DNA of 47,399 bases from positions 1-47,399 of IMG/VR virus record IMGVR_UViG_3300009481_004502, one strand, 5' to 3'. This stretch comes from a virus. The position numbers were made by a program, and so were the translations under genes. Shown in pieces: positions 3,317 to 43,127 of this stretch. The notes below the pieces were generated by a model, which searched no databases, was not told where the DNA came from, and was given only the letters and a program-made list of their open reading frames with translations. Positions within the stretch are counted from its first letter, which is position 1, and each line of letters opens with the position of its first letter.

Positions 3317-3322
3317 AAACAG

Positions 3323-15900: not shown

Positions 15901-15905
15901 TTGCT

Positions 15906-23654: not shown

Positions 23655-23666
23655 CTTACCAGCTAC
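23651..23666. terminator. Hairpin at the convergent junction with the giant fibre gene
   Basis: GTAGCT (23651-23656) and AGCTAC (23661-23666) with a four-base loop, spanning the two facing stop codons. The other convergent junction (13845-13858) holds the same GTAGCT/AGCTAC arms without a loop. There is no T-run, so two-way termination is only a suggestion. Confidence 0.35.
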
Positions 23667-26600
23667 CTAGCGCTGTCCTTCTCCACCCTGCACCGCTTAC
23701 CTTGATATACAGGTAATTAGAGTCATAAGCGACCTGTCCTGTTTCTCCATAGGTATCAGATGAGCTAGTAGGTATACTTCCGGTGTACTCATATCTGAGT
23801 ACGCCGTGTATTAACGTATCTCCCGTAACTTGATCAAGGGTTACGTCACCATTAATCTGAAGAGTGCCGTAACTTATTACGTCATCATTAATTGTTGGGT
23901 TAACAAATGTGCCTTGAGAACCATTATTAAGATTTAAATCTTGTTGGATTGTTTGGACATTTGAGAATGTACCACTTGTTACGTTTACATCTCCGGAGAT
24001 TGTAAAGGCTTCACCAGAGAAGTTTACATTGCCTCCAGTTACATGGAATGACCCCCCAGATACTGCCTCTATGTTGGTTGCGCCAGTATTTATGTTATAA
24101 ACTACTCCGCTTTGAGATATCCCAGTAATAAAGTTTACGCTGCTATTTAAAGTAACGTCAGAATCAGTTATGAAACCTGTTCCATTGGTTATTGATATAC
24201 CAGAGCCAGTTAAGTTGATAGTGCCTTGGTTATTTATAGTGCTCCCTGTAATGTTTACAGTTGAGCCTGTCACGTTATGGACTCCCCCAGTAAGGAATAT
24301 TGAAGTCCCAGTTATGTTAAATCCAGTGCCTTCAGTGAAGTAAGCGTTTTCAGCATCTATATTCGCAGTCCCAGTAATATCTATGTTACTGATTGTTGTT
24401 CCTGTAACAGAAACTAATGTCGAAGCTTCACTTACTACTATGTCGGCGTTATTACCTGTGATATTAACTATCTGACCAGATATTGTATTGGTTCCATTTC
24501 TTACAGAAACTATGAACCCAGTGATATGCGAGTTTGTGCTATTGGTTACGCTAGTTTCATTACCTGTTATATTTACCGTATCCGCATTTACTGTATGACT
24601 GTCTCCAGTGGTGAAAACAGTACCGCCCGTTATAAATACATCAGCAGCTTTTAAAGTACCATAGTTATTAGAATAACTATTAAAAACATTTGCTTGAGTC
24701 GGAAATACAGATATTGTATGGCCTGTTATATGATGAGTTCCGCTTCCGGTTATAAAGGCATCGCCAGTTATAAAATTCGTACTGCCAGAAATCCCAACTT
24801 CTGATCCAGTTATATAGTTTGAGCCTCCTGTTATATTTACTGTTCCAGTTACGTAAGCTACATTCGCTCCTGAAATATTACTAACACCACCAGTTACATT
24901 GATATCTTGCGTTCCGGTAATGAAGCTCGTTCCGCTGATTACTGTTATTTCATTTCCTGTTGCGAAGTTCGTTCCGCCAGTTATGAAAGCTGTGGTTGTT
25001 GTTGTGAAAGCTGTAGCGCTCGCTCCAGTAATTGTTAATTCGAGTAACTCTACCCCAGTTACATTAATTGTTTCTCCAACTACAGAAGCTATAGAGCCTC
25101 CAGTTATGTCATACGTAACACCAGTCGAATAAACATTTCCTGAACTTATCGTAATGTTGTGTCCACTAGCGTAAATAAATTCGTCTACGCCAGTAATGTT
25201 TATTGTTTCGCCGCTTACATAAGCTTTATTTCCCGTGATGTAATTTACGCCACTATATACATTAAAGTCAGATCCACTTAAATAATTTACTCCTCCAGTG
25301 ATTGTTGGGTTATCTCCAGTTACAAAACTAGTACCAGAAATTATCTCTACCCCAAAGCCTGTTAGGTAAAGAGTACTATTAGTTATAGTTGATCCAGTTG
25401 TAGAAATATTTGTGCCCGTAACAGTATTGGTTCCTCCAGTTACGTAGACCTCGCCCCCTGTTATATTGTTAGATCCATTATTAACTACTATGTTGTGGCC
25501 AGTTATTTCATTTATACCGTTAGTTATTGAAGCGTTGTCGCCAGTTATATAAATGGTATTTCCAGTACCATTCAGTGTATTTGTACCTCCGGTAATACTG
25601 AAGGATTCCCCTGAGTATATTACATTCGAGGAATCGTCTATGAAGAATGTTCCTCCGGTAATGTTTCCGGTGCTGTTATTAAAAGTAATACTGTGTCCAG
25701 TTACATAGACTGTCTCTCCTGTAATATTTGCATTGTTTCCAGTTACGTAAACTGTTTCTCCCGTTATGAAATTCTCTCCTCCGGTTATCGATACTGTTGA
25801 TCCAGTGTTAAGACTTGTCCCTCCGGTGATGTATACTTCAGTCCCCGTAAAGTGGTTCGCACCTCCAGTGATTTGAACGCTTCCAGTTATGTATGCGTTT
25901 GATGGGCTACTTACAGAATTGTTACCACCTGTAATATTTACATTGGTCGCATTTAAGGTAGATACAGTTCCATTTGTTATGTTTACTTCTGTTCCTGTTA
26001 CGTTTGAAGTTCCGCCAGTGATAGTTACTGTAGTTGCTCCAGAAACATTACTAATACCTGAAGTAATACTTCCGATTGTTCCAGTAGCGTGAATAACGCC
26101 TCCAGTAATTTGAGCATCACCAGTTATATTAACTGTAGATCCAGTTATATAATTTATTCCCCCAGTAATCTCGAATGAGTTACCTGTTAAGCTATTAACG
26201 CCACCGCTTACATATACATCAGTTCCAGTTATATAATTAGTGCCCCCGCTTAAGCCTATGCTCTGACCAGTAGCAGAAACAGTTAACCCTGTCGCAAAAA
26301 TATTACCCCCTGTTGCGAATATATCTCTACCAGTTACAAAAGAAGTTCCGCCAGTTATAAATACGTCGCTATTTTGACCAGAGAATGTATTGGTTCCGCC
26401 AGTAATACTTATGTTATTACCTGTTATGCTATTTACGCCTCCATCAACACTAGCCACCGGAGCATCAATTGTTAGGCTTGCACCAGCTTGATTTGTAATG
26501 GAGTTATCGCCGCTTTGGATCGTAATTGTAGATCCTGTTATTGTGTTTGTGCCGCCAGTTAAACTAAATGTTACTCCGGTTAAACTATTTGCTCCTCCAG

Positions 26601-29600
26601 TTATACTTACGCTCTGTCCGGTTATATAGTTAGTACCGTTTGTTACGTAAAAGTTTTCGCCAGTTAAATTATTTGTTCCCCCAGTTATGTTTGCGGTTCC
26701 AGTTACGTTTACATTATTACCATCGGTATTTAGGGTAAAATTTGATACTCCACTAGTTATATTGATTACTCCAGTGGCGTTAGATCCAGTGAGTATATAA
26801 TTATTTCCTCCTGTTACAGTAAAGGACTCGCCAGTCGCAAACAGCGAAGAATTATTAGATATATCTGAGTTGCCCGTTATATAAACCGTGCTATTTGATG
26901 TAAGAGTTACCAACTCGTTACCCGATACGTTAACCGAATTATTTTCTGAGGTTATGGTTATATTACCGCCTGTTACGTGAGCAGGGCCATTTAGAGTGTG
27001 AGTACCTCCAGTTATTTGCACCAAGCTATTGCCAGATATAGTATTCGATCCACCCGTAATGTATATGTTATTACCTGTTACGCTATTAGTCCCACCCTGA
27101 ACGATTAAACTTGTTCCCGTTATAATTACATTGTCACCGCTATTAACTAGAGTTCCATTGGTGATACTAACATTTTCACCAGTTAAGAATATTGTTCCTC
27201 CATCTGCACCAGTGACGCTGAAGGAATTTCCAGTTAGATTAATTTCTCCGCCATTTGAATTTGTGATCGTATTTGTTCCAGAAGTAATCGTGGCAACACC
27301 GCCAGCGCCAATCGTCAACTGACTTACGGTTAAATTAGATCCAGTAAACGAAGTAGTATCTAGGGTTTGAATTGACCCGCCAGTAATAAATACATCCCCA
27401 GTGGAGTTTATAGATGCTCCAGTTCCACCAGTTATAAATATGTCCCTTCCGGTAATATTTGTTCCCGTGGAGTTTTGGACGAAATTTGTACCACCAGTTA
27501 TAAGGATTGTGCCGCTCTGAATGGTATTTACTGTATTTTGAGCAATATTTACTGAATCAGCATTTAGTACAGAGTCAAATATAGAGTTCTCGTTACCCGT
27601 GAATTCGGTTATTGTAACTCCAGAAATAGTATTTTTATCACCTTGGACATAAACTGTGCCTCCGGTAATTTCAGTTTGCTCAGAGAAGTTTACATAGATT
27701 GCTTCTCCAGTATGAATTGTATTTACGCCATTGGTTATCGTAATTGAATTTCCGGTGAACTCACTAGTACCGCTGTTTATACTAACAGACTCTAAGTTAG
27801 AATTATTAAATGATACTGTATTACTTGTACCAGTAATAGAAAGCGTAGCATCTCCCGTTATATTAAGAGTATTACTACCTGTAGCATTTACAGTGTTTGT
27901 CCCAGATATATTCGCTACATTTGTAGTTATTGTGGTGTCGCCTGAGTAAATATTTACAGCGTCTCCAGTTGAAATTGTATTTGTTCCACCCGTTATTGTG
28001 ACTATCGCGCCTTCCACTACAACTGAATCGGCAGATATTGTTCCTCCATTATTGGTAACGCTAGTGCCACTTACTACATTTAAAGTGCTGTTGCTTACAT
28101 TAAAGGTTGTTCCTGTTGCCCCAGATACAAACCCACTTTGTATAGTAACATTTTCGCCAGTTACAAACGCATTCCCAGAAACATGGGTTGTTCCTCCAGT
28201 AATCCCTATGGAACTTATGGTATTTCCAGTTATAGAATTAGACCCACCAGACGTAAATAGTCTTTGTACGTCTAATATTAAAGTAGCATTATTCGTTATG
28301 CTGTTTTCGCCACTTGTTATAGTTACTGTTCCAGAATTTGCTATGGTCGTATTACCACCAGTAATTGAAACTAAGGATATACTTGAACCAGTAATATTAC
28401 CGCTGCCACCGTCACTAATTTGAACGCTCGATATTGTTTGGCCAGTTACATTTAATGAGCCAGATCCAGTTGCAGTTATAGATATTGATGTCCCAGTTAG
28501 ATTATCTATTTCAGAGCTTGATATTGTTATCGTTTCTCCAGATACAGAAACATTACCCGATACATAATTAACTCCCCCAGTTACAAAAGTGTTCGCTCCA
28601 GTCCAATTATTTTGACCTCCGGTAATATATACATTTGATATCGCAGCGCCGGAAAAATTGTTAGTACCAGTGTTAGAAGTAACATTATCTGGAGTTAAAG
28701 CCAAAGTTCCTGAGTTTGTTATGTTCGTAACACCACCAGCAATTGAAACGCTCCCAGAGGTGGAAATCGTGGAAGTACCAGAATTTATAGTTATATCACC
28801 TGTATTATTAGATATTGTGGTATCGCCACTTGTTATAGATACATTAGAGCTTTCGACAGTATTTACGCCCCCAGTAACAGTTGCAGATTCTGCGAATCTA
28901 ATAAATGCATATCCTAAGTCACTAAGAGTTAGATAATTTTCGCCCCCTGTTATGTGGTAATTACCATCTAAGCCTGTGACGTTAAAAGTAGATCCAGTTA
29001 CGTTATACGTACTTCCATTAGAGGTGATTATGCCTGTTCCACCAGTAATATTTATAGTACTACCTGTGATATAATTAGTACCACTTTGGACAGTTGAGTT
29101 ATCGCCAACAATACTTACGTCGCCGTTAATTGTCGGCGTAATTAAATTATTTGTTCCACCACTAATTTCTAATTTATCTAAATTTGGGAAATAGTTTTCG
29201 CCACCAGTGATATTTAATACAGCGCCAGAGTTATTTTCTCCAGTAAGATAAAAGTTTCCACTCTTTACGGTTATTGTATTATTAGCACCAGTAAAGAACG
29301 TATTTCCGGTATTAATATTAATCGTCAATCCAGTTTCAAGACCTGTGAAATATGTTTCACCAGAATTTACTGAGATCTCATTACCAGTTATATAATTAAT
29401 TCCAGAATTAACTGTAGTAGTACCAGTTATGTATACGTTATTAGAAGAATTTTCATTACTGTGAACACTATTGGTTCCACCAGTTATGTAAATATGACCA
29501 GTTCCAGTATTAAACGAGACATTTGTTGTCCCATTTTGTATGGCAATATCATTATCGCCAGTTATTTGTAGGTCGAAACTTCCGCCGTCTATAGTTAAAT

Positions 29601-32600
29601 TCTCTGCATTTACCGTAGAAGCGCCCAAGGCTGTTAGGCTTATAGTATTGCCTGTTACCCCAAGGTTGTCAGAAGTTAGATTAAGGTTATTTAAGTTATC
29701 TCCCGTAACCGTAGCACCACTAGAATTAATAGTGTTCGTTCCACTATTTATTGTTATTCCTACACTAGCTGTAGCAGTGACCTGAGAAGAAGCTTCGTTT
29801 GCTGAAGCAAGAGCGTATCCACCAGTAATATAATTTGTGCCTCCAGTTATATTTATATTGGAGGTCATAACTCCAGAGGCATTTGCCGTGGAGGCATATC
29901 CATTAGCGTTTGCAATACCAACTGCCCCGCTAATATTATTAGTACCACTAGATATGTTTACCGTAATTCCAGTTATGGTGTTGGTGGACGGATTGCTAAA
30001 GTTAATGGTAGAGTTATTAATATCTCCAAGCTCAATCCCAGATGCTAAATTGACTGTTCCATCAGATATTGTAATTCCAGTACCAGTAACAGAAACTTGA
30101 GTTCCATCACTATTGTATAGCTGGACACTTCTTCCTGTATAAACATTTACCGTTCCACTTTCTGGATAGATAAAGTTTGTGCTTTCTCCGCTAATAGATA
30201 TAGATGAAGATGCCCCAGTTAAATTATTTGTACCTCCCTGTATACTAATTGGCACTGTAGAATTAGCAGATGTAAACGTCCTTACCTCTACTTCTTCGCC
30301 TTCTGCTGGAGCTTCCGCTAAATGTACAAAATTTCCACTTATTTCATAATCCTTAAAAGGACTCATCAAGACACCACCAACAGAAACCAATAAACTTTCT
30401 TCTCCTGTTGGCACTGAACCTGAAATTAAATAATCTCTTCCATCGGGGTCATATATCGAAGTGCCAATTGACTTATTGTCAGAGACAGTAGTTATATAAT
30501 TTGTGCTATTGTTTGTGGAGAGACCAGTAGTGGAAACATTATCTAAGCTTCCACTATTTAAAGTCAAAACTGAATTATGAGCAGTAACCGTATTGCCGGA
30601 GCTAATTTCAACATTAGATCCAGTTAAATTAATTGTACCCGTTGCAAAAATATTAACGCCTGTTGCGTTGGATATATTGCCAGTTAAATTAATTGTATCA
30701 CCCGTTACATTCGTTATAGATCCAGTTACGCTAAATGTTTGACCACTAGCGCTTGTAACGTTTCCGGTTATATTTGTTGAAACTCCAGTTATTTCATTAG
30801 TTCCACCAGATACATATACATTTGTACCAGTTGTTGTAGTTATAATGTTCGAATCGTGAACATTCTGGATTGTTCCGGTATAATTTACAGTTGCCCCTGA
30901 AATACTAGCGTTGTTTCCAGAGACACTTATGTTTCCACTATTTACGGTGACGTTGTTAACGCCGCCAGTAAGACTTAAATCATTTGAGCTTATAGTTACA
31001 TAATTTGTTCCGCTCAATAAAGAGAATGACCCCGGCTCTTTTCCGGTAATGTAATTTGTTCCACCTGTTACCGTTATTGAAGATCCAGTTATGTATCCAG
31101 TACCGTAATTATTAACCGATATATTATCCCCTGTTAATTCAAGACCACCAGTAACATTTATGGTGTTTGTACCACCTGAAATAATTAAATCACCACTTAC
31201 TTCATTTGTGCTATTGATTACTCCACCAGTTACATTAAATGTAGCGTTAGCATCCTTTATTGTTATTTCGGAGTCATGAATCGACGAAATGGTAGAGTCT
31301 TCTATATCTAAAGTTCCATTATATATATCCGCATTGCCCGTAACTTGGAGAGAGCTTATTGTAGCTACTCCAGAGTTTTGCAGTACGAAAAATCCCGGAT
31401 CTGATACTGTAACTGCATCTTTTTTAACGGTGTCAGCCGCAATATCTAAAGATACAGTTTGCCCACCAGTTATGGATATATTTCCAGAATGAGAACCAGA
31501 AAATGTAACTTGAGTAGACTCTCCAGTTATGGTCGTATTTCCAGATAAAGAATCTATATTTATGGTTTCGGCAGATAATGAACTTACATCTCCAGTTAAA
31601 TTAAATATAAAATCCCCAGATATGTCAGAAATTTCTACATCTACTTCTGAATTATTAAACGTATTTAAAGTGCCGCTTTCTTGAATTAAGGTGGCGGTAG
31701 CCCCGCTATTAACATTAACTGTACCGCCAGTTACGTAAACTAAGTTTGTTTCACCGCTATATATATTTGCAGTATTTCCAGTCCCTGTAATTGTAACAGA
31801 ATTTACTCCTCCAGTTATTGTTAAATCGCCTGATAAATTTCCGCCGTTAAAATACTGATTAACTTCTGTAGTGCCATTATTAACTATAGTGCCGCCAGTT
31901 ACATTAAAGGTGCTATTATTACCATCTACTGTAAACGTACCGCTTTTGGTGTCATTAAATACGTTTATACTATCATCAATGTCGAAAGAAGCTCCGCTGA
32001 ATCCTGTAATTGTGGTAAACGTACTACCAGAGATAGAAATGTTTTGGCCTGTAATATACTGATTAGAGCCACTTCCAGTAATAAATATATCATTTCCAGA
32101 TACAAATAAGTTTCCACTCTCCTTATTGTAAATATTTATATTATTAGGAGAATTAAAAGTAAAATTACCAGTGGAATTAATTATGGCTGTTCCAGAGTTT
32201 ACAGTTACCCCAGTGCCTAAATTGCCATTTATATTTGTTGTTCCGCCAGTAGCAAAGACGCTGCCAGACACATTTCCAGTAAGATCTACTTGCCCAGTGT
32301 ATATATGAAGATTTTCTGGGGCGGGTAAAGTCAACTGATCATAATCAGAAGAATCTAAATTTATTGTAGCTCCAGATGCTACATCTACAGAATTACCGCT
32401 TCCAGTTATGTATATACTAGCGTTTGTGCCATTATTAAAGGTAAAGCTTCCGGAAGTAGATTGAGAAAACGAGGATGTCCCTCCGGTAATATTAACAGTA
32501 CTTCCAGTGACGTAATTAGTGCCAGAATTAAGCTGAATGTTTTGCCCGGTTACGTAACCAGTTGTTGCGTTGACTGTATTGTTTGTCCCGGTAATATTTA

Positions 32601-34296
32601 CTGAAGCAGAATTTACAGTTATTGTGCTGCCAGTTACAGAAAGTACATCTCCTGTTATATTTACAGTTCCAGAATTTATTTGATCTACTGATCCAGTTAC
32701 ATAAGCATTCTGTCCGGTAGCATTTAAAGTGATAGCGAGATTGTCGCCTGACGCGCTAAGATCTCCAGAGATATAATTTTCTCCAGAGTATATATTTATA
32801 TTTCCACTACTAATTGTATTTACTCCACCAGTTAAGTATCCAGTCTGGAAACTTACAGTGCCTGAGTTTGAAACGGTTACTTCTCCTCCTGAAAATATTA
32901 CTGTCCCAGTATTATTAACGTTTCCGCCAGATCCAGTTATATAAACTTGATCGCTAGACAAATTAGTAATATCAGAGCTACTGATATTTATAGTGCTATT
33001 TGATCCTGTTATGTCAGTTACAGAGCCACTTACTATTGAAACTGTACCCGCTAAATTTGTAACGTCTGTATCTCCAGTTATTGAAACTGTATCTGAGTTT
33101 ATAACTGTTATTTTTTTAGATCCAGTGATAGACGCATGAGCAGAGCTCGAAAGAGTAACTTCATCTGCATTTACGTCTACTGTTGAGCTATTTATAGTAT
33201 TAGTTCCAGAGTAAACATTTAAGCCTGTGCCTATAACAGTTACTTCTCCAGAGTTTATTATATCCCCGGTTACATTTGCTGTTCCCGTTATATAAACGTC
33301 TCCGCTGTTACTAATTGAAACAAAATCAGATTGATTTATGTTTGTGGTTCCACTTACGGAATTTGTTATGCTGACGTTATCGCCAGTAAAACTTAATGTA
33401 GAACTATTGTTTATTGTATTTCCATCTCCAGTTAAATTTAAAACTGAAGTATCTCTCATATTAAATGTAGAGAAGTTGCCTGTGGCTACTAATACTTGAG
33501 ACTCATATATATTAGCTGGATTTGGCTTGTAAACTAATGGCGACCCACCAGTTAAATTCAAAGTGGCAATTGTATTATCGGTAAGTACTTCTACAGTCCC
33601 ATTTACATTTACATCAGATGAGTTTGTTACTGTCGTTGTACCTCCATTTATAGTTACTGAATCACCTGTTACATTATTGTTTTCTCCAGTAATATAGAAA
33701 GTTTGCCCCGATACAGTAGTAGTTCCTCCAGTGATTTGAACTAATGTTCCGGTAACACTAGTGTTCGTGGAGTCAATTATCTGGTTGTATACATTTGATA
33801 CATCTCCTGATATCGTAGCCGCTCCAGAGTATACGTTTACATTAGAGTTGCTTACCCCTGTAAAGTAAGCGTCTTGACCAGAAGCTAAACTTATTGTGTT
33901 GGTTCCACTGAAAACACTAATGCTATTTCCGGTTACATTAGATTCACCACCTGTAATTATTATTTGAGATCCTGTAGCATATACAGTAGACCCAGAAATT
34001 GTATTATTATCCCCAGTTACAGAAACACTGCTAGAGCTATTGATGTAACCAATTCCGCTATCGGTTATGTAAACACTTCCAGTTACATCTCCTGAAATTA
34101 TACCACCGCTAGTTACATTAACATCTCCAGTTACTGAGATGTTGTTGGCCCCAGAAACAAACGTAGTACCCCCACTAATATCTAAATTTAGATCGCCACC
34201 GACATTTAATTCCTCAATGACACTACCGCTTACTGATACATTATTGCCCGTAATGTATCCTGTTGAGAAATTTAATTGTACTAAATCTATATTCAT
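23656..34296 (-). CDS. Giant repetitive tail-fibre protein (3546 residues, ITG beta-solenoid)
   Basis: Nearly the whole protein is a repeat of about seven residues, x-x-V-x-I-T-G, doubled into 14 (for example TVSITGGENFITGE). It is rich in Thr, Gly, Asn, Ser, Ile and Val, has almost no Cys or Lys, and is suited to a beta-solenoid or trimeric beta-roll. Residues about 1273-1343 are a different module (YLISGSVPTGEESLLVSVG, then SPFKDYEISGNFVHL). The C-terminus GETGQVAYDSNYLYIKVSG ending WRRTALGSW matches the end of phage fibres. It would form a long shaft with a compact tip. It is the last gene of the minus-strand tail operon and starts two bases after the 2309-residue gene. Few phage proteins are this long. 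The fold is inferred from the repeat. Confidence 0.85.
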   Translation of the reverse strand: MNIDLVQLNFSTGYITGNNVSVSGSVIEELNVGGDLNLDISGGTTFVSGANNISVTGDVNVTSGGIISGDVTGSVYITDSGIGYINSSSSVSVTGDNNTISGSTVYATGSQIIITGGESNVTGNSISVFSGTNTISLASGQDAYFTGVSNSNVNVYSGAATISGDVSNVYNQIIDSTNTSVTGTLVQITGGTTTVSGQTFYITGENNNVTGDSVTINGGTTTVTNSSDVNVNGTVEVLTDNTIATLNLTGGSPLVYKPNPANIYESQVLVATGNFSTFNMRDTSVLNLTGDGNTINNSSTLSFTGDNVSITNSVSGTTNINQSDFVSISNSGDVYITGTANVTGDIINSGEVTVIGTGLNVYSGTNTINSSTVDVNADEVTLSSSAHASITGSKKITVINSDTVSITGDTDVTNLAGTVSIVSGSVTDITGSNSTINISSSDITNLSSDQVYITGSGGNVNNTGTVIFSGGEVTVSNSGTVSFQTGYLTGGVNTISSGNINIYSGENYISGDLSASGDNLAITLNATGQNAYVTGSVDQINSGTVNITGDVLSVTGSTITVNSASVNITGTNNTVNATTGYVTGQNIQLNSGTNYVTGSTVNITGGTSSFSQSTSGSFTFNNGTNASIYITGSGNSVDVASGATINLDSSDYDQLTLPAPENLHIYTGQVDLTGNVSGSVFATGGTTNINGNLGTGVTVNSGTAIINSTGNFTFNSPNNINIYNKESGNLFVSGNDIFITGSGSNQYITGQNISISGSTFTTITGFSGASFDIDDSINVFNDTKSGTFTVDGNNSTFNVTGGTIVNNGTTEVNQYFNGGNLSGDLTITGGVNSVTITGTGNTANIYSGETNLVYVTGGTVNVNSGATATLIQESGTLNTFNNSEVDVEISDISGDFIFNLTGDVSSLSAETINIDSLSGNTTITGESTQVTFSGSHSGNISITGGQTVSLDIAADTVKKDAVTVSDPGFFVLQNSGVATISSLQVTGNADIYNGTLDIEDSTISSIHDSEITIKDANATFNVTGGVINSTNEVSGDLIISGGTNTINVTGGLELTGDNISVNNYGTGYITGSSITVTGGTNYITGKEPGSFSLLSGTNYVTISSNDLSLTGGVNNVTVNSGNISVSGNNASISGATVNYTGTIQNVHDSNIITTTTGTNVYVSGGTNEITGVSTNITGNVTSASGQTFSVTGSITNVTGDTINLTGNISNATGVNIFATGTINLTGSNVEISSGNTVTAHNSVLTLNSGSLDNVSTTGLSTNNSTNYITTVSDNKSIGTSIYDPDGRDYLISGSVPTGEESLLVSVGGVLMSPFKDYEISGNFVHLAEAPAEGEEVEVRTFTSANSTVPISIQGGTNNLTGASSSISISGESTNFIYPESGTVNVYTGRSVQLYNSDGTQVSVTGTGITISDGTVNLASGIELGDINNSTINFSNPSTNTITGITVNISSGTNNISGAVGIANANGYASTANASGVMTSNINITGGTNYITGGYALASANEASSQVTATASVGITINSGTNTINSSGATVTGDNLNNLNLTSDNLGVTGNTISLTALGASTVNAENLTIDGGSFDLQITGDNDIAIQNGTTNVSFNTGTGHIYITGGTNSVHSNENSSNNVYITGTTTVNSGINYITGNEISVNSGETYFTGLETGLTININTGNTFFTGANNTITVKSGNFYLTGENNSGAVLNITGGENYFPNLDKLEISGGTNNLITPTINGDVSIVGDNSTVQSGTNYITGSTINITGGTGIITSNGSTYNVTGSTFNVTGLDGNYHITGGENYLTLSDLGYAFIRFAESATVTGGVNTVESSNVSITSGDTTISNNTGDITINSGTSTISTSGSVSIAGGVTNITNSGTLALTPDNVTSNTGTNNFSGAAISNVYITGGQNNWTGANTFVTGGVNYVSGNVSVSGETITISSSEIDNLTGTSISITATGSGSLNVTGQTISSVQISDGGSGNITGSSISLVSITGGNTTIANSGTVTITSGENSITNNATLILDVQRLFTSGGSNSITGNTISSIGITGGTTHVSGNAFVTGENVTIQSGFVSGATGTTFNVSNSTLNVVSGTSVTNNGGTISADSVVVEGAIVTITGGTNTISTGDAVNIYSGDTTITTNVANISGTNTVNATGSNTLNITGDATLSITGTSNTVSFNNSNLESVSINSGTSEFTGNSITITNGVNTIHTGEAIYVNFSEQTEITGGTVYVQGDKNTISGVTITEFTGNENSIFDSVLNADSVNIAQNTVNTIQSGTILITGGTNFVQNSTGTNITGRDIFITGGTGASINSTGDVFITGGSIQTLDTTSFTGSNLTVSQLTIGAGGVATITSGTNTITNSNGGEINLTGNSFSVTGADGGTIFLTGENVSITNGTLVNSGDNVIITGTSLIVQGGTNSVTGNNIYITGGSNTISGNSLVQITGGTHTLNGPAHVTGGNITITSENNSVNVSGNELVTLTSNSTVYITGNSDISNNSSLFATGESFTVTGGNNYILTGSNATGVINITSGVSNFTLNTDGNNVNVTGTANITGGTNNLTGENFYVTNGTNYITGQSVSITGGANSLTGVTFSLTGGTNTITGSTITIQSGDNSITNQAGASLTIDAPVASVDGGVNSITGNNISITGGTNTFSGQNSDVFITGGTSFVTGRDIFATGGNIFATGLTVSATGQSIGLSGGTNYITGTDVYVSGGVNSLTGNSFEITGGINYITGSTVNITGDAQITGGVIHATGTIGSITSGISNVSGATTVTITGGTSNVTGTEVNITNGTVSTLNATNVNITGGNNSVSSPSNAYITGSVQITGGANHFTGTEVYITGGTSLNTGSTVSITGGENFITGETVYVTGNNANITGETVYVTGHSITFNNSTGNITGGTFFIDDSSNVIYSGESFSITGGTNTLNGTGNTIYITGDNASITNGINEITGHNIVVNNGSNNITGGEVYVTGGTNTVTGTNISTTGSTITNSTLYLTGFGVEIISGTSFVTGDNPTITGGVNYLSGSDFNVYSGVNYITGNKAYVSGETINITGVDEFIYASGHNITISSGNVYSTGVTYDITGGSIASVVGETINVTGVELLELTITGASATAFTTTTTAFITGGTNFATGNEITVISGTSFITGTQDINVTGGVSNISGANVAYVTGTVNITGGSNYITGSEVGISGSTNFITGDAFITGSGTHHITGHTISVFPTQANVFNSYSNNYGTLKAADVFITGGTVFTTGDSHTVNADTVNITGNETSVTNSTNSHITGFIVSVRNGTNTISGQIVNITGNNADIVVSEASTLVSVTGTTISNIDITGTANIDAENAYFTEGTGFNITGTSIFLTGGVHNVTGSTVNITGSTINNQGTINLTGSGISITNGTGFITDSDVTLNSSVNFITGISQSGVVYNINTGATNIEAVSGGSFHVTGGNVNFSGEAFTISGDVNVTSGTFSNVQTIQQDLNLNNGSQGTFVNPTINDDVISYGTLQINGDVTLDQVTGDTLIHGVLRYEYTGSIPTSSSDTYGETGQVAYDSNYLYIKVSGAGWRRTALGSW
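23980..34270 (-). repeat. Coding tandem repeat, 21/42-base period
   Basis: The DNA under the solenoid shows a recurring core that reads on the + strand as CCAGTTAT(A/G)T and variants (the complement of ITGG codons), spaced in multiples of 21 bases for about 10 kb. It is interrupted near 30265-30480 by the non-repeat module. Third positions vary freely, so the copies are old and kept by selection on protein. Confidence 0.75.
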
Positions 34297-34298
34297 TA

Positions 34299-37200
34299 TT
34301 AGCTTGCAGCCCCAGTTAGGTAAACTGTTGAGTAATAAATGTAGTAATTAGTGCCTGTAGCTTGTACAGTATTCGCACCACTTATTACATTTGTCGAGTT
34401 GGCGTTACCTGTAAAGCTCAGGTCTCCGCTGTTTAAATCTATATTTGTTATTTGGCCAGACCCAGTTATCGATATGCTATCTATGCTGTTGCCTGTAATA
34501 TTAACGCCAGTAGAGTTATTTACCGTTACATTACTGGTGAACACATCTACGTTTTCACTGTCAGTGATCGTAGCATCATCACCAGTTATGTTGAATTGAG
34601 TTTGCCCATATCCTTGAGCCGTAAATGAGGCGTTTGCTGTAATTGTGTTGTTGTATTCTTGCGTATTAATCGACATTGGGTCGATTTTGTATCCGAAGAA
34701 GAAGGATTGATCCGGATCATCCTTTACTTTTCTATTAGCGGAGGAGTCTGTGATCGCAAAGATTTCAAAATAATCTCCGGATAACGCATCTACAACCGAT
34801 GACACGGTTGGAGTTAAAAAGTAGTTAGCAACATCGTCTGTATTGTAGACTTTACTAGCGGCAATTTCACTATTGTGGTGAGTTGACGATGTGGTTCCAT
34901 TAATTGATGTGGCATTTTTATGGATTTGAGCCTCAACGAAATCCCCTGCGGAAATCTTACCCATGTAAAGAGATGCGGATAAGAAATACTTTCCTGATTC
35001 TGGCGCTATGAATCTAAAGTTGGATTCATCATATCCTGTAATATAATTTTCTCCAGATCTTTCATGGTTAAATTCTACAATTTCGTATTTGTTTTGAGCT
35101 ATAGTCAGGTCACTTCCAGATCTGTAAGCGTGGAAATGAGGTACTTTAATACTACCGCTATCAGACATTGCGCCTGAGAAAATATAATTAGCAGTACCAT
35201 TATTTTGAGTAACATGAACCCCAGATGCAAGCCCAGTTATATTTGCGGTTGAATTACCCTGTATTGTTATTCCAGTTCCAGAGTAGCCAAAGTTACTTAC
35301 TTGACTGTCTGTAATTGTTAAAGTCTGCCCAGAAAGAGTTGGAATAATTCCAGAGTTTGTTACTGTTACATTAGTGCCTGTAACTGATGCGGTTCCAGTA
35401 TACCCAGATAGGAAAAATACGTCATTAGTGCTTTCATATATTCTAACGTCTGTTCCGCTTACTGAATTAGTGCCGCCAGTAATATGTGCAATTCCAGTTA
35501 TTTGATTGCTTCCGCCAGTAACATGAACTTTACCTGCTCCAGTTTCTGCGTATACGAAAGTTTCAGAATTGTTTGTTATGTAGTTAATAGTTCCTTCATT
35601 GGCTACTACTACATTTGAATTAGTGGAAGTTACGCTAGAATCACCACCCGGCTCAGTATATACATTAACTGCGGTAGCTGCTGCGTTGTTGTCGATGCTA
35701 ACATCGATTCCTGTAAACTGGTTATATATAGATTGACCGCCACCAGTAATGCTTACATTACTATCGTAAATATTATAGTTATCTACGTTCAACCCAGATA
35801 TATCACCAGAAAAAGTAATGTTTGTTCCTGTTGAAAGATCGGTGAAGTTAAGACTTCCAGATCCCTCCATAGGAATAGTAATGTTGTACTCGGTAGGTTG
35901 AGCTACAACACTATCTGATATTTGTCTTATTAAGACTTCTTCACCTACGCTTGGAGCAGAAGCTATCTTTACGCCAGTAGTTCCTGATAATACATAATCT
36001 ATGCTAGGTGAAAGCTCTATGCCGTCAAGAGACACAAAGACTCGTTCTACGTCATTTTCTGTATACTCCATTAAGAACGAATCTTGATCTCCGTTCCCTG
36101 TGTAAATTGCTGTTCCTATTACAGAACCTATCCCAGTGTTAGGCTGAAAAGTAAGAGATGCATTACCGTGAGTTGTAATTTCAAAACTCGCAGCACCACT
36201 ACCGCTATTGAAAGTACCTACAGCGTACAAACTTCTACGGCTTGCTACATCATCATCGGAATGCGTTGATCCAAGTCTTGCGTATACGTCAAGGTTAAGC
36301 GGCGAATCCCCATTGTGCGCTGATGGATAACCTTCCGTGACATAACTAGCTAGAATATTATCGCTCTCACTATTTGTCGTTTCTACTTGAGCGGTAGTAA
36401 CGATTGGCCAATCCATTTCATCACTGCCGACTTTAATTTTTACGTCTTGTAAATTATCCGCTGTTTGTAAAAAGGTAGTAAAATGAACTTTAACGTGCTC
36501 CCACACCGAAGAAGGGGGAAGATTTAAAGCTATAGACCCAACAAGTGTATCCGTAGAGGTTAAAGTGTTTGAAGTCGCGGTTCCCTGCACTCCAGTAAAG
36601 CCTAAGTGATTGCCAATACTTACATTCTCGAAATTGTAAGTGTCTGTTGTAGGATCTACCGAGTGGCCGTTTATGTTGATACCTGCTCCATCGCCAGTTA
36701 AGGTTATAAAGTTGTTCTCTATAACGGCTGATTTTGAAGTATCATCTTTCTCGTAAGCAATTATTTTCCCACCAGAAATAATTAAGTCCCTGTCAAGTAA
36801 AGTAGCTCTAGTAATATTTTCATATATTTCTAAAATATCGTCGGAGCTTTTTGCTCCGCTGAACATATGAATATCTCTCAAGTTTCCTTCAACAAATCTA
36901 GCTGCTGACGTATTTGAGAGTATGTTGATTTGCTGATCTGTATATGAAATGGTTTTTGAACCTACAGATTCAGAATTAGCTTCCTCACCACTAATATATA
37001 TTTTGTGGGTTGACCCATCCCAAGTCGAATTAACTAAATGGTACTGACCTGTGTCAACGGGATTAGTAAATACCGTGGAAGAACTAAGATCAGTAAATGT
37101 CAGAGTAGAAAAGAATCTTCTGCTAGAGTCATAACTTATCTGAAAACTTACGAGCTCAGTAGGCACTAAGTTTGGAGCTTCAAAAATTGGTGTCGCTATT

Positions 37201-40200
37201 GTTCCGCCAGCCTCTTTTGGATTAAATAAAATACCAATCGTAAAGTCTTGAGCCTTCAAGTCTTCAGACATCGGCATTGTTGCGTACTGATCCGAGCCGT
37301 TGAACTGAAGTTCATTTATTGAGAACGTTGGGGAATTAACTAGAGTGGCAGTATTTTTACTCTTTGATACATCTACCCAACTTGAACCTGCTCCAGAATA
37401 ACTAGCTTCGTTTGAAGCATCTAAATGCAAAATTTTATTTTTTCTAGGAAGACCTTTAACAAGCGTATCAGCCTCAAACGGAACACCATCTAATAAGTAT
37501 TCTCCCGATACGTCTATATCCCCATGAACAAAAGTGTTGCCTGAAGAAACTAATTTATCCTGTACGAAAGCACTTTCATGTACTCTTAGATTTCCAAATA
37601 CATCTAAGTCTCCTTCTACGATTTTGAATGTACCTATTCGATCTGTATTATAAGGAGAAGTTAATTTAAAATCAAAATCTTGAGGTAATGGCAATATTCC
37701 CGTGGGAGTTAATCCAGATATGCCTGTAGTTCCATTTGATAATCCTGTGAACGATGTAGTTAGAGTTATTAAATCGTCTGTATCTTGCGAATCAATCTGA
37801 AGACTATTGGCGTATTCGAGATTTATACCGCCTACTGCAAATATGGTTTCTCCTTGAATTCCTACTGACGGAAAAAAACCTGTGATTTCAGGAGGCCTAG
37901 AAACTATTAAATGACCGCTTCCACCTTGAATGTCTTGAGAAGATGTTTCACTATAGTTGCTAGAGATCTTTATTGTACCAGACTCTCGGAAATTTCCATG
38001 AGAAAAAGAAACGCTAGGTATAACAGCTTCAATCCCAGTAATAGAAGTAGAAGATATAGTAATTGGATACTCTGCACCACCACTTATAGTACCGCCGCTA
38101 ACTACTAGGTCAACGCCTGTTATGTTTGTTAGGCCTGTGCCCTCTATAAATAAACTTTGATTAGGGAAGCCAGACAAAGTAGAAATTCCGCTTATGTCTA
38201 TGAGCTCTGGCAGAATTACAAGCTCATGGCCCTTAAATCTTATATCTTCAAATTTATTACTAGTAAAACTTCCAGTAAATCCAGAGTAAAAATGGCTTTT
38301 ATGTTGATAAGCAGTGCCGGTTGTTTTTCCGCTCCAGAAGAAGGGGTCTACCACGCCATCTGAATCAACATCTATGTTACTAAATAATCTACCTTGTTGC
38401 CCAGCCGCTGAATCAGGTCCAGCTTCAACAACATGACTTCTATAAGTATGCAGTAAGCCAGTTTCATTTAAAAAGAAGAATAACTGACCAGTACCTACAA
38501 AATTATCTCCAATTGTTATTGGAAATACATAAACTCCTGTCTCATCGACATTTGCAATCCCACTTTGGAAGTGGTCTCTTCTTATTTCAGCATTATATTT
38601 GTGAGCTTGAGGATCATTATTACTTATTAATGTCTGAGGTTGATTAGGTATAAATATATCACCTAGGTTAAACCAACTAGCATCACTTCCATCCTCAAAG
38701 AAACTAGCTTTTGTATTGTAGTTACTTAAAAATTCTAATTCTTTATAAGAGCTAGGCTCATGATTAGCTCCTACTCCCGTACCAGATATACCAATGGAGT
38801 TTTCAAAGGTGTTGAATGCGTTTACACCAGTCACATAAAGAGTATCCCCTACCCTTATCTCTGTATGAGATATTCCAGTTATGACTGGCCAAATATATAA
38901 CTTAACTCCAATTGGCCTATAATCACTTGCCGAAGGAGAAGTGACCTCTTTTCTTGTGGTGTATACTGAAACCTGATCTGGTAATCCACGAGGAATTTCA
39001 AAAGTGACATACTGCTCACCATCTCCTGAAGTAAGATACTGAGTATTAGTTGGCTCTACAAATGCTCTGTTAGGATTAGTATTAAGAGTCGAATTCCCTA
39101 TTACCGGATTGTCTAAATCAAGACTTCCACCTGTATATCCCGGATAAAGATAAAACTTTGAGTTATGTAAATCATTGCCCCTCAAATAGACAGTCTCTGC
39201 ATAAATTCCGGTAGATGGGTTAGCAGTTACATTTGTCGGCGCAGCATCAATGGAGAAAATATCGGATGTAGTGCAAGAAGAATATTCAGTTACTAGCTTT
39301 AACGGTCCACTTGTTGCATCTCCGGGAACTCTAACCATTATGCCAGTTTTGGGACTTGATCCCGTTGGCAATATTTGAGTCGTGAAACCATCATTCTGAA
39401 CTTTAACAACGCTTGGAGCAGAAGAGCTAGTTCCAGAAAAATGAACTCCAGTGACTACCTCTAAATTACCCCCAGTAATTGTTATGGTCCCTCCTCTTAA
39501 CTGAGAGGCTGGATAAAACCCACTGCAAACTACGTCATCAGGAATTGTAAGAAACTTACCGCTGTAATATGCCGTTCCATTAGGGGTAGTGAGAGTTAAA
39601 GACTCGTATCTATTCCTAAATAAATTATCGTATGTTAAGTAAGAACTTCTGGCAGGAACAGTGAAAGAAAGTCCAGTAGGATTAAATGGATTAATTTCAG
39701 AATAAGTCGTTACTGGAACTGAGCCATGCTTAAGACTTGTAACTCCAGCTAGTGAAGTACCACTTATAACAACTGTATCTCCATGAGAGCCAGATTCTGG
39801 CGTAACTGAATTTATTGTTGGAGCACCAAGAAAGCTAAATGAGCCTTCACTCATTCCACCAGTTGCAACTCCGTTTTCTACCAAAAGCCTATAACTAGCA
39901 GAGCTAGAAAGACCGGGAATTTGAACAGTCATTGTCTGCTGTTCGGTTCTCGGATCTCCAACTACTCCTGAAATTGTCGCTGGAATTTTTCTAGATAAAT
40001 GAGCTACATCGCTTTGACCAGAAAAGAAAACTTTTAAATCGTCAGTGAAGAAGCCGCTACCAGTTATAGTAACCGCTTCATTAATTCTTCCTATGCTCGG
40101 AGTAAAGCCAACTATTTCCGGTTTGTACTTTGCGTAAAAGGCTCCCTCAGACTGGCCTGTTCCATGACTGGTCTGAACTACCAGATTCATGTATCCAGTA

Positions 40201-41228
40201 CCAGATGGAGAAGATATAGTTAAGTCAGTGCCACTTACGTTATCGTAAGATATTGTTTGAGGGCTTAATAAGTTATCTGCTGAATCTATATCAAAAGCAG
40301 AACCACTCTTATAGGCGTATATACCAGTAACTGAACTAAAGTTTGCTCCTTTTACATCGTAAAATGAAACGTTACTGTTTCCTGCTGGAATACCAGATTG
40401 CGGAGTTACAGAAGTTATAACTGGTGGACCGACTAATAAATTAAAATCTATGCCACCTGTATGAGGAACTCCATTCGGAGCAAGTAAATTTACGTTTCCT
40501 GATACAGCATCAACTGGGATGAAGCCAGTTAATATACCAGCGCCACTACTTAAAGTAGGATATCCGAAACCAGTTACTCCTCCATTAAATGAAACCTCGA
40601 AGACATTGTAGTCGGGATTAGTATTATCTTCGGATACTCTTTTTAGAGCTTGAGGAATAAAGTTTTCTCCAGAAAGAGTGACCTGACCCCCTACGATTCC
40701 AGAGGTTGGCGATATACCAGTTATTCTTGCGCCAACGCCTATACCGCTTATTGAGTCAGACAATCCAGACTGACCTACTATCTTTAAAACTCCACTTATA
40801 TTTCCCGTGGGAACTTCTATGGGCAAGGACTGTATATTAGTAATATCACCAGTTCTTGTATAACCTGTTACTTCATTATCTCCAAAGTACGCGCCAGTAA
40901 CTCCAGATAAACCCAAGCCGCTTACATTAATTATAGTATTCGGTAATGGATTAAAATTACTTACTGATATAATTTCTGGTTTCGGAACAAAGCTAAAGCT
41001 AGACTCCCCTGAAGAATTAATAAGGTCCGATGCAACAGTTATAGGCCCAAATTGAGAATTAACAGGAATAGTTGCCTCAATTAAATTAGGAGAGAGAATA
41101 GAAAATGGAGCACTAGATTCATGTTCTGGCTGTTGAGCAAAGAACACCTTATTGACAGCAGAGTAACCTTGGCCAGAAAGAACGATTGACTGACCAATAA
41201 CTCCTGTTGTTACTCCTGATAAAGCCAT
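34299..41228 (-). CDS. Giant tail protein: IPT/TIG repeats, lectin, C1q-like and solenoid parts (2309 residues)
   Basis: About residues 1-1200 hold a chain of some ten immunoglobulin-like IPT/TIG domains, seen from openings such as ITGISPTSGIVGGQVTLSG, IVGFTPSIGRINEAVTITG and INSVTPESGSHGDTVVISG. Residues about 1258-1480 look like a concanavalin/LamG lectin fold (KILHLDASNEASY, FNGSDQYATM, YHLVNSTWDGSTHKIYISG). About 1715-1755 repeats the module seen in the 3546-residue protein (VFVSLDGIELSPSIDYVLSG). A stretch of ITG repeats comes next, then about 2025-2183 a C1q-like jelly roll (FIAPESGKYFLSASLYM). ITG repeats return at the end. It is probably the base or connector of the giant fibre, with possible glycan binding. 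Start: AAGGG precedes the ATG. Confidence 0.85.
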   Translation of the reverse strand: MALSGVTTGVIGQSIVLSGQGYSAVNKVFFAQQPEHESSAPFSILSPNLIEATIPVNSQFGPITVASDLINSSGESSFSFVPKPEIISVSNFNPLPNTIINVSGLGLSGVTGAYFGDNEVTGYTRTGDITNIQSLPIEVPTGNISGVLKIVGQSGLSDSISGIGVGARITGISPTSGIVGGQVTLSGENFIPQALKRVSEDNTNPDYNVFEVSFNGGVTGFGYPTLSSGAGILTGFIPVDAVSGNVNLLAPNGVPHTGGIDFNLLVGPPVITSVTPQSGIPAGNSNVSFYDVKGANFSSVTGIYAYKSGSAFDIDSADNLLSPQTISYDNVSGTDLTISSPSGTGYMNLVVQTSHGTGQSEGAFYAKYKPEIVGFTPSIGRINEAVTITGSGFFTDDLKVFFSGQSDVAHLSRKIPATISGVVGDPRTEQQTMTVQIPGLSSSASYRLLVENGVATGGMSEGSFSFLGAPTINSVTPESGSHGDTVVISGTSLAGVTSLKHGSVPVTTYSEINPFNPTGLSFTVPARSSYLTYDNLFRNRYESLTLTTPNGTAYYSGKFLTIPDDVVCSGFYPASQLRGGTITITGGNLEVVTGVHFSGTSSSAPSVVKVQNDGFTTQILPTGSSPKTGIMVRVPGDATSGPLKLVTEYSSCTTSDIFSIDAAPTNVTANPSTGIYAETVYLRGNDLHNSKFYLYPGYTGGSLDLDNPVIGNSTLNTNPNRAFVEPTNTQYLTSGDGEQYVTFEIPRGLPDQVSVYTTRKEVTSPSASDYRPIGVKLYIWPVITGISHTEIRVGDTLYVTGVNAFNTFENSIGISGTGVGANHEPSSYKELEFLSNYNTKASFFEDGSDASWFNLGDIFIPNQPQTLISNNDPQAHKYNAEIRRDHFQSGIANVDETGVYVFPITIGDNFVGTGQLFFFLNETGLLHTYRSHVVEAGPDSAAGQQGRLFSNIDVDSDGVVDPFFWSGKTTGTAYQHKSHFYSGFTGSFTSNKFEDIRFKGHELVILPELIDISGISTLSGFPNQSLFIEGTGLTNITGVDLVVSGGTISGGAEYPITISSTSITGIEAVIPSVSFSHGNFRESGTIKISSNYSETSSQDIQGGSGHLIVSRPPEITGFFPSVGIQGETIFAVGGINLEYANSLQIDSQDTDDLITLTTSFTGLSNGTTGISGLTPTGILPLPQDFDFKLTSPYNTDRIGTFKIVEGDLDVFGNLRVHESAFVQDKLVSSGNTFVHGDIDVSGEYLLDGVPFEADTLVKGLPRKNKILHLDASNEASYSGAGSSWVDVSKSKNTATLVNSPTFSINELQFNGSDQYATMPMSEDLKAQDFTIGILFNPKEAGGTIATPIFEAPNLVPTELVSFQISYDSSRRFFSTLTFTDLSSSTVFTNPVDTGQYHLVNSTWDGSTHKIYISGEEANSESVGSKTISYTDQQINILSNTSAARFVEGNLRDIHMFSGAKSSDDILEIYENITRATLLDRDLIISGGKIIAYEKDDTSKSAVIENNFITLTGDGAGININGHSVDPTTDTYNFENVSIGNHLGFTGVQGTATSNTLTSTDTLVGSIALNLPPSSVWEHVKVHFTTFLQTADNLQDVKIKVGSDEMDWPIVTTAQVETTNSESDNILASYVTEGYPSAHNGDSPLNLDVYARLGSTHSDDDVASRRSLYAVGTFNSGSGAASFEITTHGNASLTFQPNTGIGSVIGTAIYTGNGDQDSFLMEYTENDVERVFVSLDGIELSPSIDYVLSGTTGVKIASAPSVGEEVLIRQISDSVVAQPTEYNITIPMEGSGSLNFTDLSTGTNITFSGDISGLNVDNYNIYDSNVSITGGGQSIYNQFTGIDVSIDNNAAATAVNVYTEPGGDSSVTSTNSNVVVANEGTINYITNNSETFVYAETGAGKVHVTGGSNQITGIAHITGGTNSVSGTDVRIYESTNDVFFLSGYTGTASVTGTNVTVTNSGIIPTLSGQTLTITDSQVSNFGYSGTGITIQGNSTANITGLASGVHVTQNNGTANYIFSGAMSDSGSIKVPHFHAYRSGSDLTIAQNKYEIVEFNHERSGENYITGYDESNFRFIAPESGKYFLSASLYMGKISAGDFVEAQIHKNATSINGTTSSTHHNSEIAASKVYNTDDVANYFLTPTVSSVVDALSGDYFEIFAITDSSANRKVKDDPDQSFFFGYKIDPMSINTQEYNNTITANASFTAQGYGQTQFNITGDDATITDSENVDVFTSNVTVNNSTGVNITGNSIDSISITGSGQITNIDLNSGDLSFTGNANSTNVISGANTVQATGTNYYIYYSTVYLTGAAS

Positions 41229-41229
41229 A

Positions 41230-42300
41230 TTAAACCCTTAAAAATACCCCTCCAATAGAAACGGTTGGTCTTATAATTTCAAAATTATCTTCAGTCCTAG
41301 AAATTATCTCTCCATCATCTGGTCTTTTTGCTAATATGTTACCACTTGGTATTATTACATCTGGTAATACAATTTTTACTGTTTTGTCATCAACGTAAAT
41401 TACCTCTAAGTCACAATAACCTCCTATGCAAAACGTTGGATCTAAATGAAGGTTTTCTCCTGATACTGTTATTTCGTCTCCCGGAGATCCAGATAAAACG
41501 CTTATACTTGATATTGTTGAGTCTTCGCTTGGAGCAGATTGCCTTATGGAAAAACTATTGGACAGTACGTTATCTGAGGAAGTCGAAAGTTGCTTTGAAG
41601 AAGTTCTGCCTTTTACTACGTATTCGGTTTGCTTAACGCCCTCTTTATTACTTAACTCAAAAGATATTTGGGCTGAGTCCCCAAAGATACTTAAGTCACC
41701 GCTGTAATTATCGAAATTTACTCTAGTATTTAGTATTTTCTTACCAAATAAAATTCGATCTGGCTTTATATTTGTAACTCCAGAGCCAGTAATTACTTCG
41801 TAGTTGGCCTTTGTATCATTCCTGAAAGAGAGCGAGGCGCTTCGTACTTTAGTGAGATCCCCTAATCCTGTTCCATCTATTGAAATGTCACATACATTTA
41901 ATAAATTTTGAGATTCGAGAGTTTGAGTTTGGGGAGTAAAGTCTCCAGAGAAATGATCAAAGAAATTTATCTCTGCACTTATGTATACTGGCTGGTTTGG
42001 ATTCAGCCTTACATCATATTGAGTTAGATATCCACTTGGAAAACTTACTCCGCCAAAACTACCACTTATCCCAGACTGCTCATGGTAAATATGTTTCTTG
42101 ATTGGGTCTTCACCACTTAAGTAGTAGCCTACAGATAAAGTGCCCCCGACTGCTTGTTCTGGATATTGCTGACCTTGAGAAAATTTTCTATTCGCTAAGT
42201 ATCTATCATTTATACTGCCGTTTACATTTATGCTAACATTATCCGCTATAATGCCGCTTCCATTTAAATCAATTATACAGTTTTTGTAGCTACTGTACAT
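41230..42300 (-). CDS. Tail-tube-like protein with C-terminal IPT/TIG domain
   Basis: 356 residues. The N-terminal 270 share their plan with the two genes upstream (IIDLNGSGIIADNVSIN, then SGYLTQYDVRLNPNQPVYIS), which is that of phage tail-tube-type beta-barrels. Residues about 272-340 form an IPT/TIG domain (ISSISVLSGSPGDEITVSG) of the kind repeated in the next gene. It starts at an ATG overlapping the upstream stop (TAATG), with a strong AAGGAGG site. It may be the ring that carries the fibre at the tail tip, with the IPT domain as the joint to it. Tube family membership is by pattern. Confidence 0.6.
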   Translation of the reverse strand: MYSSYKNCIIDLNGSGIIADNVSINVNGSINDRYLANRKFSQGQQYPEQAVGGTLSVGYYLSGEDPIKKHIYHEQSGISGSFGGVSFPSGYLTQYDVRLNPNQPVYISAEINFFDHFSGDFTPQTQTLESQNLLNVCDISIDGTGLGDLTKVRSASLSFRNDTKANYEVITGSGVTNIKPDRILFGKKILNTRVNFDNYSGDLSIFGDSAQISFELSNKEGVKQTEYVVKGRTSSKQLSTSSDNVLSNSFSIRQSAPSEDSTISSISVLSGSPGDEITVSGENLHLDPTFCIGGYCDLEVIYVDDKTVKIVLPDVIIPSGNILAKRPDDGEIISRTEDNFEIIRPTVSIGGVFLRV

Positions 42301-43127
42301 TAGTCAATCCTCCTTATTTCAAAAGTGGATTTAACATAATCATTAGTATCCAATGTAGTATTGTTAGAAACAATTCTGTACCCAGAAACATCAAAGTCCA
42401 TACTGTCAGTTAAAGAGTCATCACATAAATAACCTAGCTTAAATATTCTTACTCTCGGATTTTGAGCACAGGCATCGAATAAAGCGCACCCGCTTTCTCC
42501 GTAGAAATTCATTTGCCTACTATTATCTCTTTCTATCCTAATTCTTTCCTCGGAGCTTAAATTGGCTACTTGCATAGGGTTCTTGCTACCAACTCCATAA
42601 AGAGGCTGAACCTTGTTGGAGAAATTATAATCAAATTTAAAAACAGGAATATCTAAGTCGCCAGCATCCGATTGAACAAAAGTGGTCCAAGCGTGAGCTA
42701 AACCACTAAAGCTTTCTGGGTATGATGCGTCACTAGTCTTACCAGTGACATTTCCACTAATCTCACCAAAACCTTGATAGGTTACGTTAGCCTTGATAGC
42801 GCTGTTCTCTTGAATTGAAAGAGAATAGTTAGTCATATAAAAAGCGCCGGATATGCCAGCGACTTCTATAACTTGAGCTTCTGCTTGCTCGAATTCTGTG
42901 GAATTTTTAATTCTAGTCGTTTCAGGAAAACAGGGGTCACTTGTTAGATCGACATAATAGGTTGCAGAAAATTGATTTCGTATAGCCCCGTTAGGAGAAA
43001 GTTCTAGGGCATCAGATCTACCGACAGGCCTAATGGCTTGAAGTGAATTAGAAGAATTAATGGAAGCATTCTGAGCCATTAACCCAGTTCCATTTACCCT
43101 AATGTCACATTCGTTAAAAAAAACCAT
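42300..43127 (-). CDS. Tail-tube-like structural protein, second paralogue
   Basis: 275 residues with the same order as its neighbours: DIRVNGTGLMAQNASINS at the start, SATYYVDLTSDPCF, then ISGAFYMTNYSLSIQENSAI and YQGFGEISGNVTGKT. It has several cysteines in the last third (ESGCALFDACAQNP). A GTGTAAAATTAAC motif lies 19 bases upstream of the start. It is probably one of three tube-like proteins stacked at the tail end or forming parts of the tail tip. It could also be a decoration protein. The paralogy is visible; the exact place in the virion is not. Confidence 0.6.
   Translation of the reverse strand: MVFFNECDIRVNGTGLMAQNASINSSNSLQAIRPVGRSDALELSPNGAIRNQFSATYYVDLTSDPCFPETTRIKNSTEFEQAEAQVIEVAGISGAFYMTNYSLSIQENSAIKANVTYQGFGEISGNVTGKTSDASYPESFSGLAHAWTTFVQSDAGDLDIPVFKFDYNFSNKVQPLYGVGSKNPMQVANLSSEERIRIERDNSRQMNFYGESGCALFDACAQNPRVRIFKLGYLCDDSLTDSMDFDVSGYRIVSNNTTLDTNDYVKSTFEIRRID

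Follow-up and report, generated by a model that had tools for sequence, protein, structure and literature searches.

Known phage fibres are for the most part several hundred residues long and consist of trimeric beta-helices or coiled coils. Here we analyse a 47,399-nucleotide stretch of DNA from an uncultured marine virus (IMG/VR record IMGVR_UViG_3300009481_004502, positions 1 to 47,399), called the window below, which encodes a rod-like protein of 3,546 residues. The virus infects bacteria, and the protein is probably its tail fibre. We assign a probability of about 0.72 to the reading that a lambda-like marine siphophage uses it as a very long tail fibre or as the shaft of an adhesin, wound as a beta-roll rod.

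Four described systems come closest. The ryegrass ice-binding proteins LpIRI/LpAFP (PDB 3ULT, PF21300) have a repeat published as NxVxG (PMC5744647), and the fibre resembles them in its coil of 14-15 residues with N-x-[V/I]-x-G every seven residues. However, the ryegrass proteins are apoplast proteins of 114-133 residues with 8 coils, whereas the fibre has thousands of residues and is the product of a phage tail operon, only the fold pattern is common to both. The heads of YadA and BpaC also have a 14-residue layer with a conserved glycine turn and with Asn and Thr positions (PMC9543794), features that we find in the fibre as well. Unlike YadA-type trimeric autotransporters, it has no visible stalk or membrane anchor domain. 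The tail fibres of marine phages in PMC3909814 carry C1q- and lectin-like host-recognition modules, as does this fibre system. They were compared there with the 553-residue T7 fibre, and none is described with a beta-roll shaft of 3,500-5,300 residues. Cyanophage structural and tail-pin proteins have a C-terminal module in common with the fibre, as described below. Beta-roll adhesins and phage fibres are known, and what is new is the size, the grass-antifreeze-like repeat and the arrangement in split and fused forms.

A seven-residue repeat under selection

The fibre is encoded by one uninterrupted open reading frame with an ATG start, at exactly the position (23,656-34,296) and of the length given in a preliminary description of this DNA. 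It contains 250 ITG-like triplets ([IVFLY][TSN]G) compared with 62 +/- 7 after shuffling, and their most frequent spacing is seven residues (73 pairs). The autocorrelation of residue identity has its maxima at lags 7 (0.161) and 14 (0.163), where 0.107 is expected. The repeat unit is x-x-[N or V]-x-I-T-G with the consensus GTNxITG. A segmentation allowing units of 5-9 residues gave 317 units, nearly all of them of seven residues, which cover 62% of the protein; shuffled sequences yield 106 units. Gap-free runs of three or more units make up 25% of the fibre compared with 0.06% in shuffles, the longest run having 10 units. The repeat of seven residues in the preliminary description is real, but its extension to almost the whole protein was overstated. 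The most regular part is the C-terminal third, residues ~2100-3450, and the remainder consists of degenerate repeats with loops, a non-repeat island and a C-terminal module.

Relatives were obtained by pattern and protein scans of IMG/VR and by reading whole records. The fibre of one relative, G010, is 96% identical to that of the window, and the ratio of nonsynonymous to synonymous polymorphism (pN/pS) between them is ~0.14, so the protein is under purifying selection. In G007, the fibre has 3,774 codons, is 42% identical and is collinear with that of the window. Judged by the pN/pS and this collinear gene, the fibre is a real protein under selection and no frame artefact. The gene is almost free of tandem repeats at the DNA level (one row), so the protein repeats are old.

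The fibres of other relatives are longer, with 4,456 codons in G019 and at least 5,267 residues, built of hexad units TTYATG, in G003, while the sequence of G006 is partial. Unlike in the window, the whole repeat region of the G003 gene (L028) is packed with tandem arrays of 18, 36 and 39 nucleotides encoding TTYATG, which point to a recent expansion.

A two-sided coil of 14 residues

Like residues should stack at every second unit in a coil of two units and at every third in a coil of three. At the core position -5 of the window fibre, the identity is 0.03 at a lag of 1 unit, 0.34 at 2, 0.05 at 3 and 0.33 at 4, with 0.18 expected. The alternation between the V and N classes is found in all four testable fibres, with z-scores of about -5 to -6 at lag 1 and of +2.8 to +5.5 at lag 2. 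GGTN-type motifs recur at spacings of 14, 15 and 28 residues, and 7 and 21 are not among their common spacings. Because the V/I-N alternation of the core has an exact period of two heptads, these lag tests, which are independent of any structure prediction, indicate a two-sided coil of 14 residues, and with the consensus GTNxITG they place the fibre among two-sided coils of 14-15 residues in the NxVxG register. The motif spacings and the alternation also bear out the pairing of units into 14 residues in the preliminary description.

A three-sided beta-helix with a coil of 21 residues, as in hexapeptide or bactofilin/pectate-lyase helices, would explain why ITG triplets are frequently 21 residues apart, and numerous three-sided helices occur among the weak Foldseek matches. 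However, the fibres of the window, G007 and G003 all have less core identity at lag 3 than expected, the test of V and N classes has its minimum at lag 1 and shows an increase at lag 2 but none at lag 3, and the profile matches given below point to a two-sided roll. We rejected the three-sided helix on the lag tests and consider it improbable.

Conservation between the window and G007 differs along the repeat unit. The turn glycine is identical in 75% of the units, the threonine in 62%, the isoleucine in 51% and the N/V position in 49%, compared with 30-37% for the two outward positions. The layers of BpaC rise by 4.8 Å (PMC9543794). With this rise, the fibre would wind into a thin parallel beta-roll rod, between 76 nm (only detected units form coils) and 122 nm (all residues do) long, with exposed rows of Thr and of Tyr/Asn. 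The length of about 120 nm estimated earlier is thus an upper bound. If this is correct, the 14-residue beta-roll, which exceeds 3,500 residues here and has at least 5,267 in a relative, would rank with the longest repeat proteins of tailed phages.

Related families and structural models

Profiles of the fibre repeat match the ryegrass protein 3ULT in the PDB, with E-values of 1.1e-10 and 6.9e-10. In a control, the 3ULT fragment obtains 35.4 bits, none of 500 shuffled fragments reaches this score (maximum 6.4 bits) and the reversed fragment obtains -6.7. As the shuffled and reversed fragments score far lower, the match goes beyond composition alone. PF21300, the grass antifreeze beta-roll, matches 14 out of 16 repeat segments (loose E-value of 10, best 1.7e-5) and no reversed or shuffled segment. 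It is found in nine of 11 records, and exceeds its curated cut-off in G003 and G004. Whole-protein scans of the fibre with Pfam and PHROGs gave no match, probably because correction for composition masks the repeat in so long a chain, and shorter pieces are needed. M protein, dehydrogenases and designed WRAP propellers also appear in the PDB searches, with E-values near 0.01, and we took these as composition matches. The best match of the fibre is then the family of the grass antifreeze beta-roll, PF21300 and 3ULT. If so, the roll pattern of the grasses recurs in phages, plausibly by convergence. According to a review (PMC5744647) the grass fold is right-handed; the Pfam name LbR_Ice_bind implies a left-handed one.

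The nearest sequence pattern being an ice-binding roll, and the rows of threonine being regular, the fibre might bind ice or another crystal lattice like the ryegrass protein. We regard this as very improbable. The likeness is limited to the fold pattern, a need for ice binding is not evident in a phage, and the sole hint of a functional row is the conservation of the threonine (0.62 compared with 0.30-0.37 at the neighbouring outward positions).

An AlphaFold2 model was obtained for a segment of 84 residues (Table 1). It has strands of about 4-5 residues, one for every seven residues. According to Foldseek, some predicted phage proteins are similar to this model, with template modelling (TM) scores of 0.66-0.72. 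Regular strands of this kind are seen in the single-chain model of 84 residues, while a model of 350 residues is poor and a Foldseek search with it is meaningless.

Several observations weigh against a beta-roll shaft of this kind. The strict repeat runs make up just a quarter of the fibre. The 84-residue model is of high quality in only two out of five runs (predicted local distance difference test, pLDDT, of 93 and 82, others ~60 or less), and the alignment behind it was built from register-matched repeats. For 350 residues, using a gapped alignment of paralogues, the pLDDT is 52. The 84-residue model superposes on no solved structure in Foldseek, the best TM-score being ~0.38 among the matches listed; 3ULT is third by E-value, yet its TM-score is 0.16. 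The handedness and the exact topology of the model are therefore tentative. In the profile searches, the score of the 3ULT fragment is also reached by five out of 500 permutations within heptads, some of which may retain the pattern, and such scores are inflated by composition bias. Finally, the best PF21300 scores in the window, 25.6-26.9 bits, are below the curated cut-off of 30.

The preliminary description had suggested a roll like that of the YadA head. The fold class, a two-sided roll of 14 residues, agrees with the lag tests and with the 84-residue model, but the family does not. No YadA_head (PF05658) match occurs in any of the 11 records or in the Pfam scans of the fibre at E-values up to 10, and no chain of a trimeric autotransporter appears in the PDB profile searches down to E = 10; the nearest family is instead that of the grass protein. 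The YadA-type layer has the register V-x-I-G, as in the motif SVAIG cited earlier, whereas the phage register N/V-x-I-T-G is one residue longer, as in the grass NxVxG.

A trimeric left-handed parallel beta-roll of the YadA-head type, with three chains per rod, would likewise have a layer of 14 residues. In the BpaC head, one position forms an Asn ladder, the core is rich in Thr and the rise is the 4.8 Å used above (PMC9543794). A YadA domain has also been reported in the tail fibre of a pelagiphage (PMC3909814). Given the absent family matches and the shifted glycine, we find three YadA-type chains per rod quite unlikely. Foldseek places a YadA-like head (3s6l) only at a TM-score of 0.11, and for the poor model only.

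Split and fused forms of the fibre

The gene next to the fibre encodes a protein of 2,309 residues (Table 1). Its C-terminus and the N-terminus of the fibre both consist of ITG repeats, no separate anchor domain is present, and the two frames lie two nucleotides apart. In G007, a single in-frame TAA separates the protein with TIG repeats from the fibre, and in G004, G017 and G018 the two form one continuous open reading frame. When the two frames of the window are joined in silico and compared with the fused ones, an alignment of ~430 residues runs unbroken across the junction. A programmed frameshift between the giant frames was considered and rejected, as no slippery site is seen at the junction of the window and the split in G007 is due to one in-frame TAA. 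In G004 (116 kb), a single frame of 6,041 codons lies at ~72,835-90,960 (parts of L029 and L030), beyond the tail genes.

Most simply read, the split and fused arrangements suggest that the two giant proteins stack end to end into one rod. The C-terminal coils of the 2,309-residue protein would stack onto the N-terminal coils of the fibre, giving one continuous rod that is anchored on the tail by the TIG/LamG protein, and the relatives would make the equivalent rod as a single fused chain. The proposal as a whole, a split solenoid fibre in which chains of 2,309 and 3,546 residues stack, the genes shift between split and fused forms, and the roll is of a type found so far only in plant ice-binding proteins, is tentative, and we put it slightly below even odds. 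The natural split and fused versions make it possible to test directly whether solenoid ends can stack to join two chains. They also bear on the adjustment of length by addition of coils, with fresh arrays of 18-39 nucleotides in G003 and almost none in the window.

By tblastn, the fibre has no match in isolated phages, to which the low-complexity filter may contribute. The 302-residue protein encoded by the first gene of the fibre operon has none among the 50,697 phage records of our INPHARED copy (isolates). A scan of bacterial and archaeal genomes with a DNA pattern gave eight matches, none of them in an ITG-type repeat protein, and thus revealed no prophage or host source.

Gene neighbourhood and role on the tail

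The fibre gene is the last of an operon that lies within the tail module of a tailed phage, divergent from and adjacent to genes similar to M, L and K of lambda, Table 1. In G007, a homologue of J follows M, L and K. The order of the operon (302, 275, 356 and 2,309 residues, fibre), divergent from M, is kept in G000, G010, G007 and G004, and more loosely in G006; the position of the 356-residue gene is kept in G007, G004 and G006. Among the 25 loci with homologues of the 302-residue protein, the downstream order is conserved where contigs are long enough. In two distant phages (L072, 14,911-16,332, and L073, 14,866-16,290), a fibre-like protein of 474-475 residues with x-G-N-x-T-V repeats is encoded downstream of the 302-residue homologue.

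Table 1. Positions of the fibre, its modules and the neighbouring tail genes in the window.
Feature	Position	Strand	Evidence
Giant repeat fibre	23656..34296	-	Open reading frame, ITG triplets, 3,774-codon collinear G007 homologue, pN/pS 0.14 vs G010
C-terminal module, last 52 residues (...GQVAYDSNYLYIKVSGAGWRRTALGSW)	23659..23814	-	Cyanophage match, 36-47% identity
Best PF21300 stretch of the fibre	24727..24996	-	E 4.5e-7, under curated cut-off of 30 bits
Seven other PF21300 stretches	25387-25632, 25717-25998, 26182-26442, 26518-26772, 26869-27096, 27028-27186, 33928-34194	-	
Folded segment, residues 2643-2726	26119..26370	-	12 consecutive perfect heptads; AlphaFold2 pLDDT 93.0, predicted TM-score (pTM) 0.78
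Non-repeat island, residues ~1303-1348, resembles T7 tail-fibre N-terminal domain	30253..30390	-	PF03906 E 0.04, weak
2,309-residue protein: TIG/IPT repeats, LamG-type lectin, divergent C1q-like segment, ITG repeats to C-terminus	34299..41228	-	PF13385 E 1.3e-13; PF01833 E 5.5e-4
356-residue tail-tube-like protein, paralogue of 275-residue protein	41230..42300	-	27% identity over 137 residues, E 3e-7
275-residue tail-tube-like protein	42300..43127	-	Weak: Phage_tube_2 E 0.026; PDB tail tube 8q01 E 0.23
302-residue conserved structural protein, first gene of fibre operon	43165..44073	-	Homologues in 25 IMG/VR loci
Lambda M-like minor tail protein, divergent neighbour	44143..44673	+	phrog_14 E 1.5e-21
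Lambda L-like minor tail protein	44673..45932	+	phrog_18 E 4e-51
Lambda K-like tail protein	45932..46639	+	phrog_30 E 4e-72

In cyanophages, the C-terminal module of the fibre also stands at the end of structural proteins and of a baseplate wedge/tail pin protein. These proteins (syn9, ACG-2014b, S-SCSM2R) have ~40-50 residues in common with the fibre, and no relative of the ITG beta-roll was found in the records of these phages. The module of the non-repeat island is also present in the 2,309-residue neighbour, seen as a match of 69 residues to the G007 fibre (E-value 4e-6), and the fibre of G003 has a C1q domain that exceeds the cut-off. Host recognition in marine phages is typically encoded by genes for lectins, C1q domains and tail fibres (PMC3909814).

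Because of the tail-gene context, the C-terminal module, the C1q domain in G003 and the fibre-like proteins of the distant phages, a tail fibre or adhesin shaft is the best reading of the gene product, and we infer that it is present on the virion and binds a receptor. This gene context, with M, L, K and J and a conserved order, likewise favours the tail-fibre role assigned in the preliminary description. Contact with the host surface would then fall to the lectin-like inserts and to the C-terminal module at the distal end. The protein could instead decorate the virion surface or tail, or coat the tail as a long flexible tether, without being a receptor-binding fibre; the gene adjoins tail-tube-like genes, and Ig-like (TIG) and lectin-like domains do serve as decorations. 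We judge this unlikely, since the C-terminal module matches proteins of the fibre and tail-pin type and distant relatives have a fibre-like protein at the corresponding place, downstream of the 302-residue homologue.

Other genes in the window

A protein of 690 residues (13,852-15,924, minus strand), without a family match, diverges much faster than its neighbours. Its identity to the G007 homologue is 33% over part of its length, compared with 60-80% for many of the neighbours. A DnaE-like DNA polymerase is seemingly split into two genes on the plus strand (11,909-13,228 and 16,555-19,185), which match positions 63-289 and then 305-1090 of phrog_405, with other genes between them, and the same split is present in G007. 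Three adjoining genes at 3,323-6,242 (plus strand) resemble paralogues, and the two outer ones match a family of nucleotide-sugar epimerases, which suggests a phage-encoded sugar modification.

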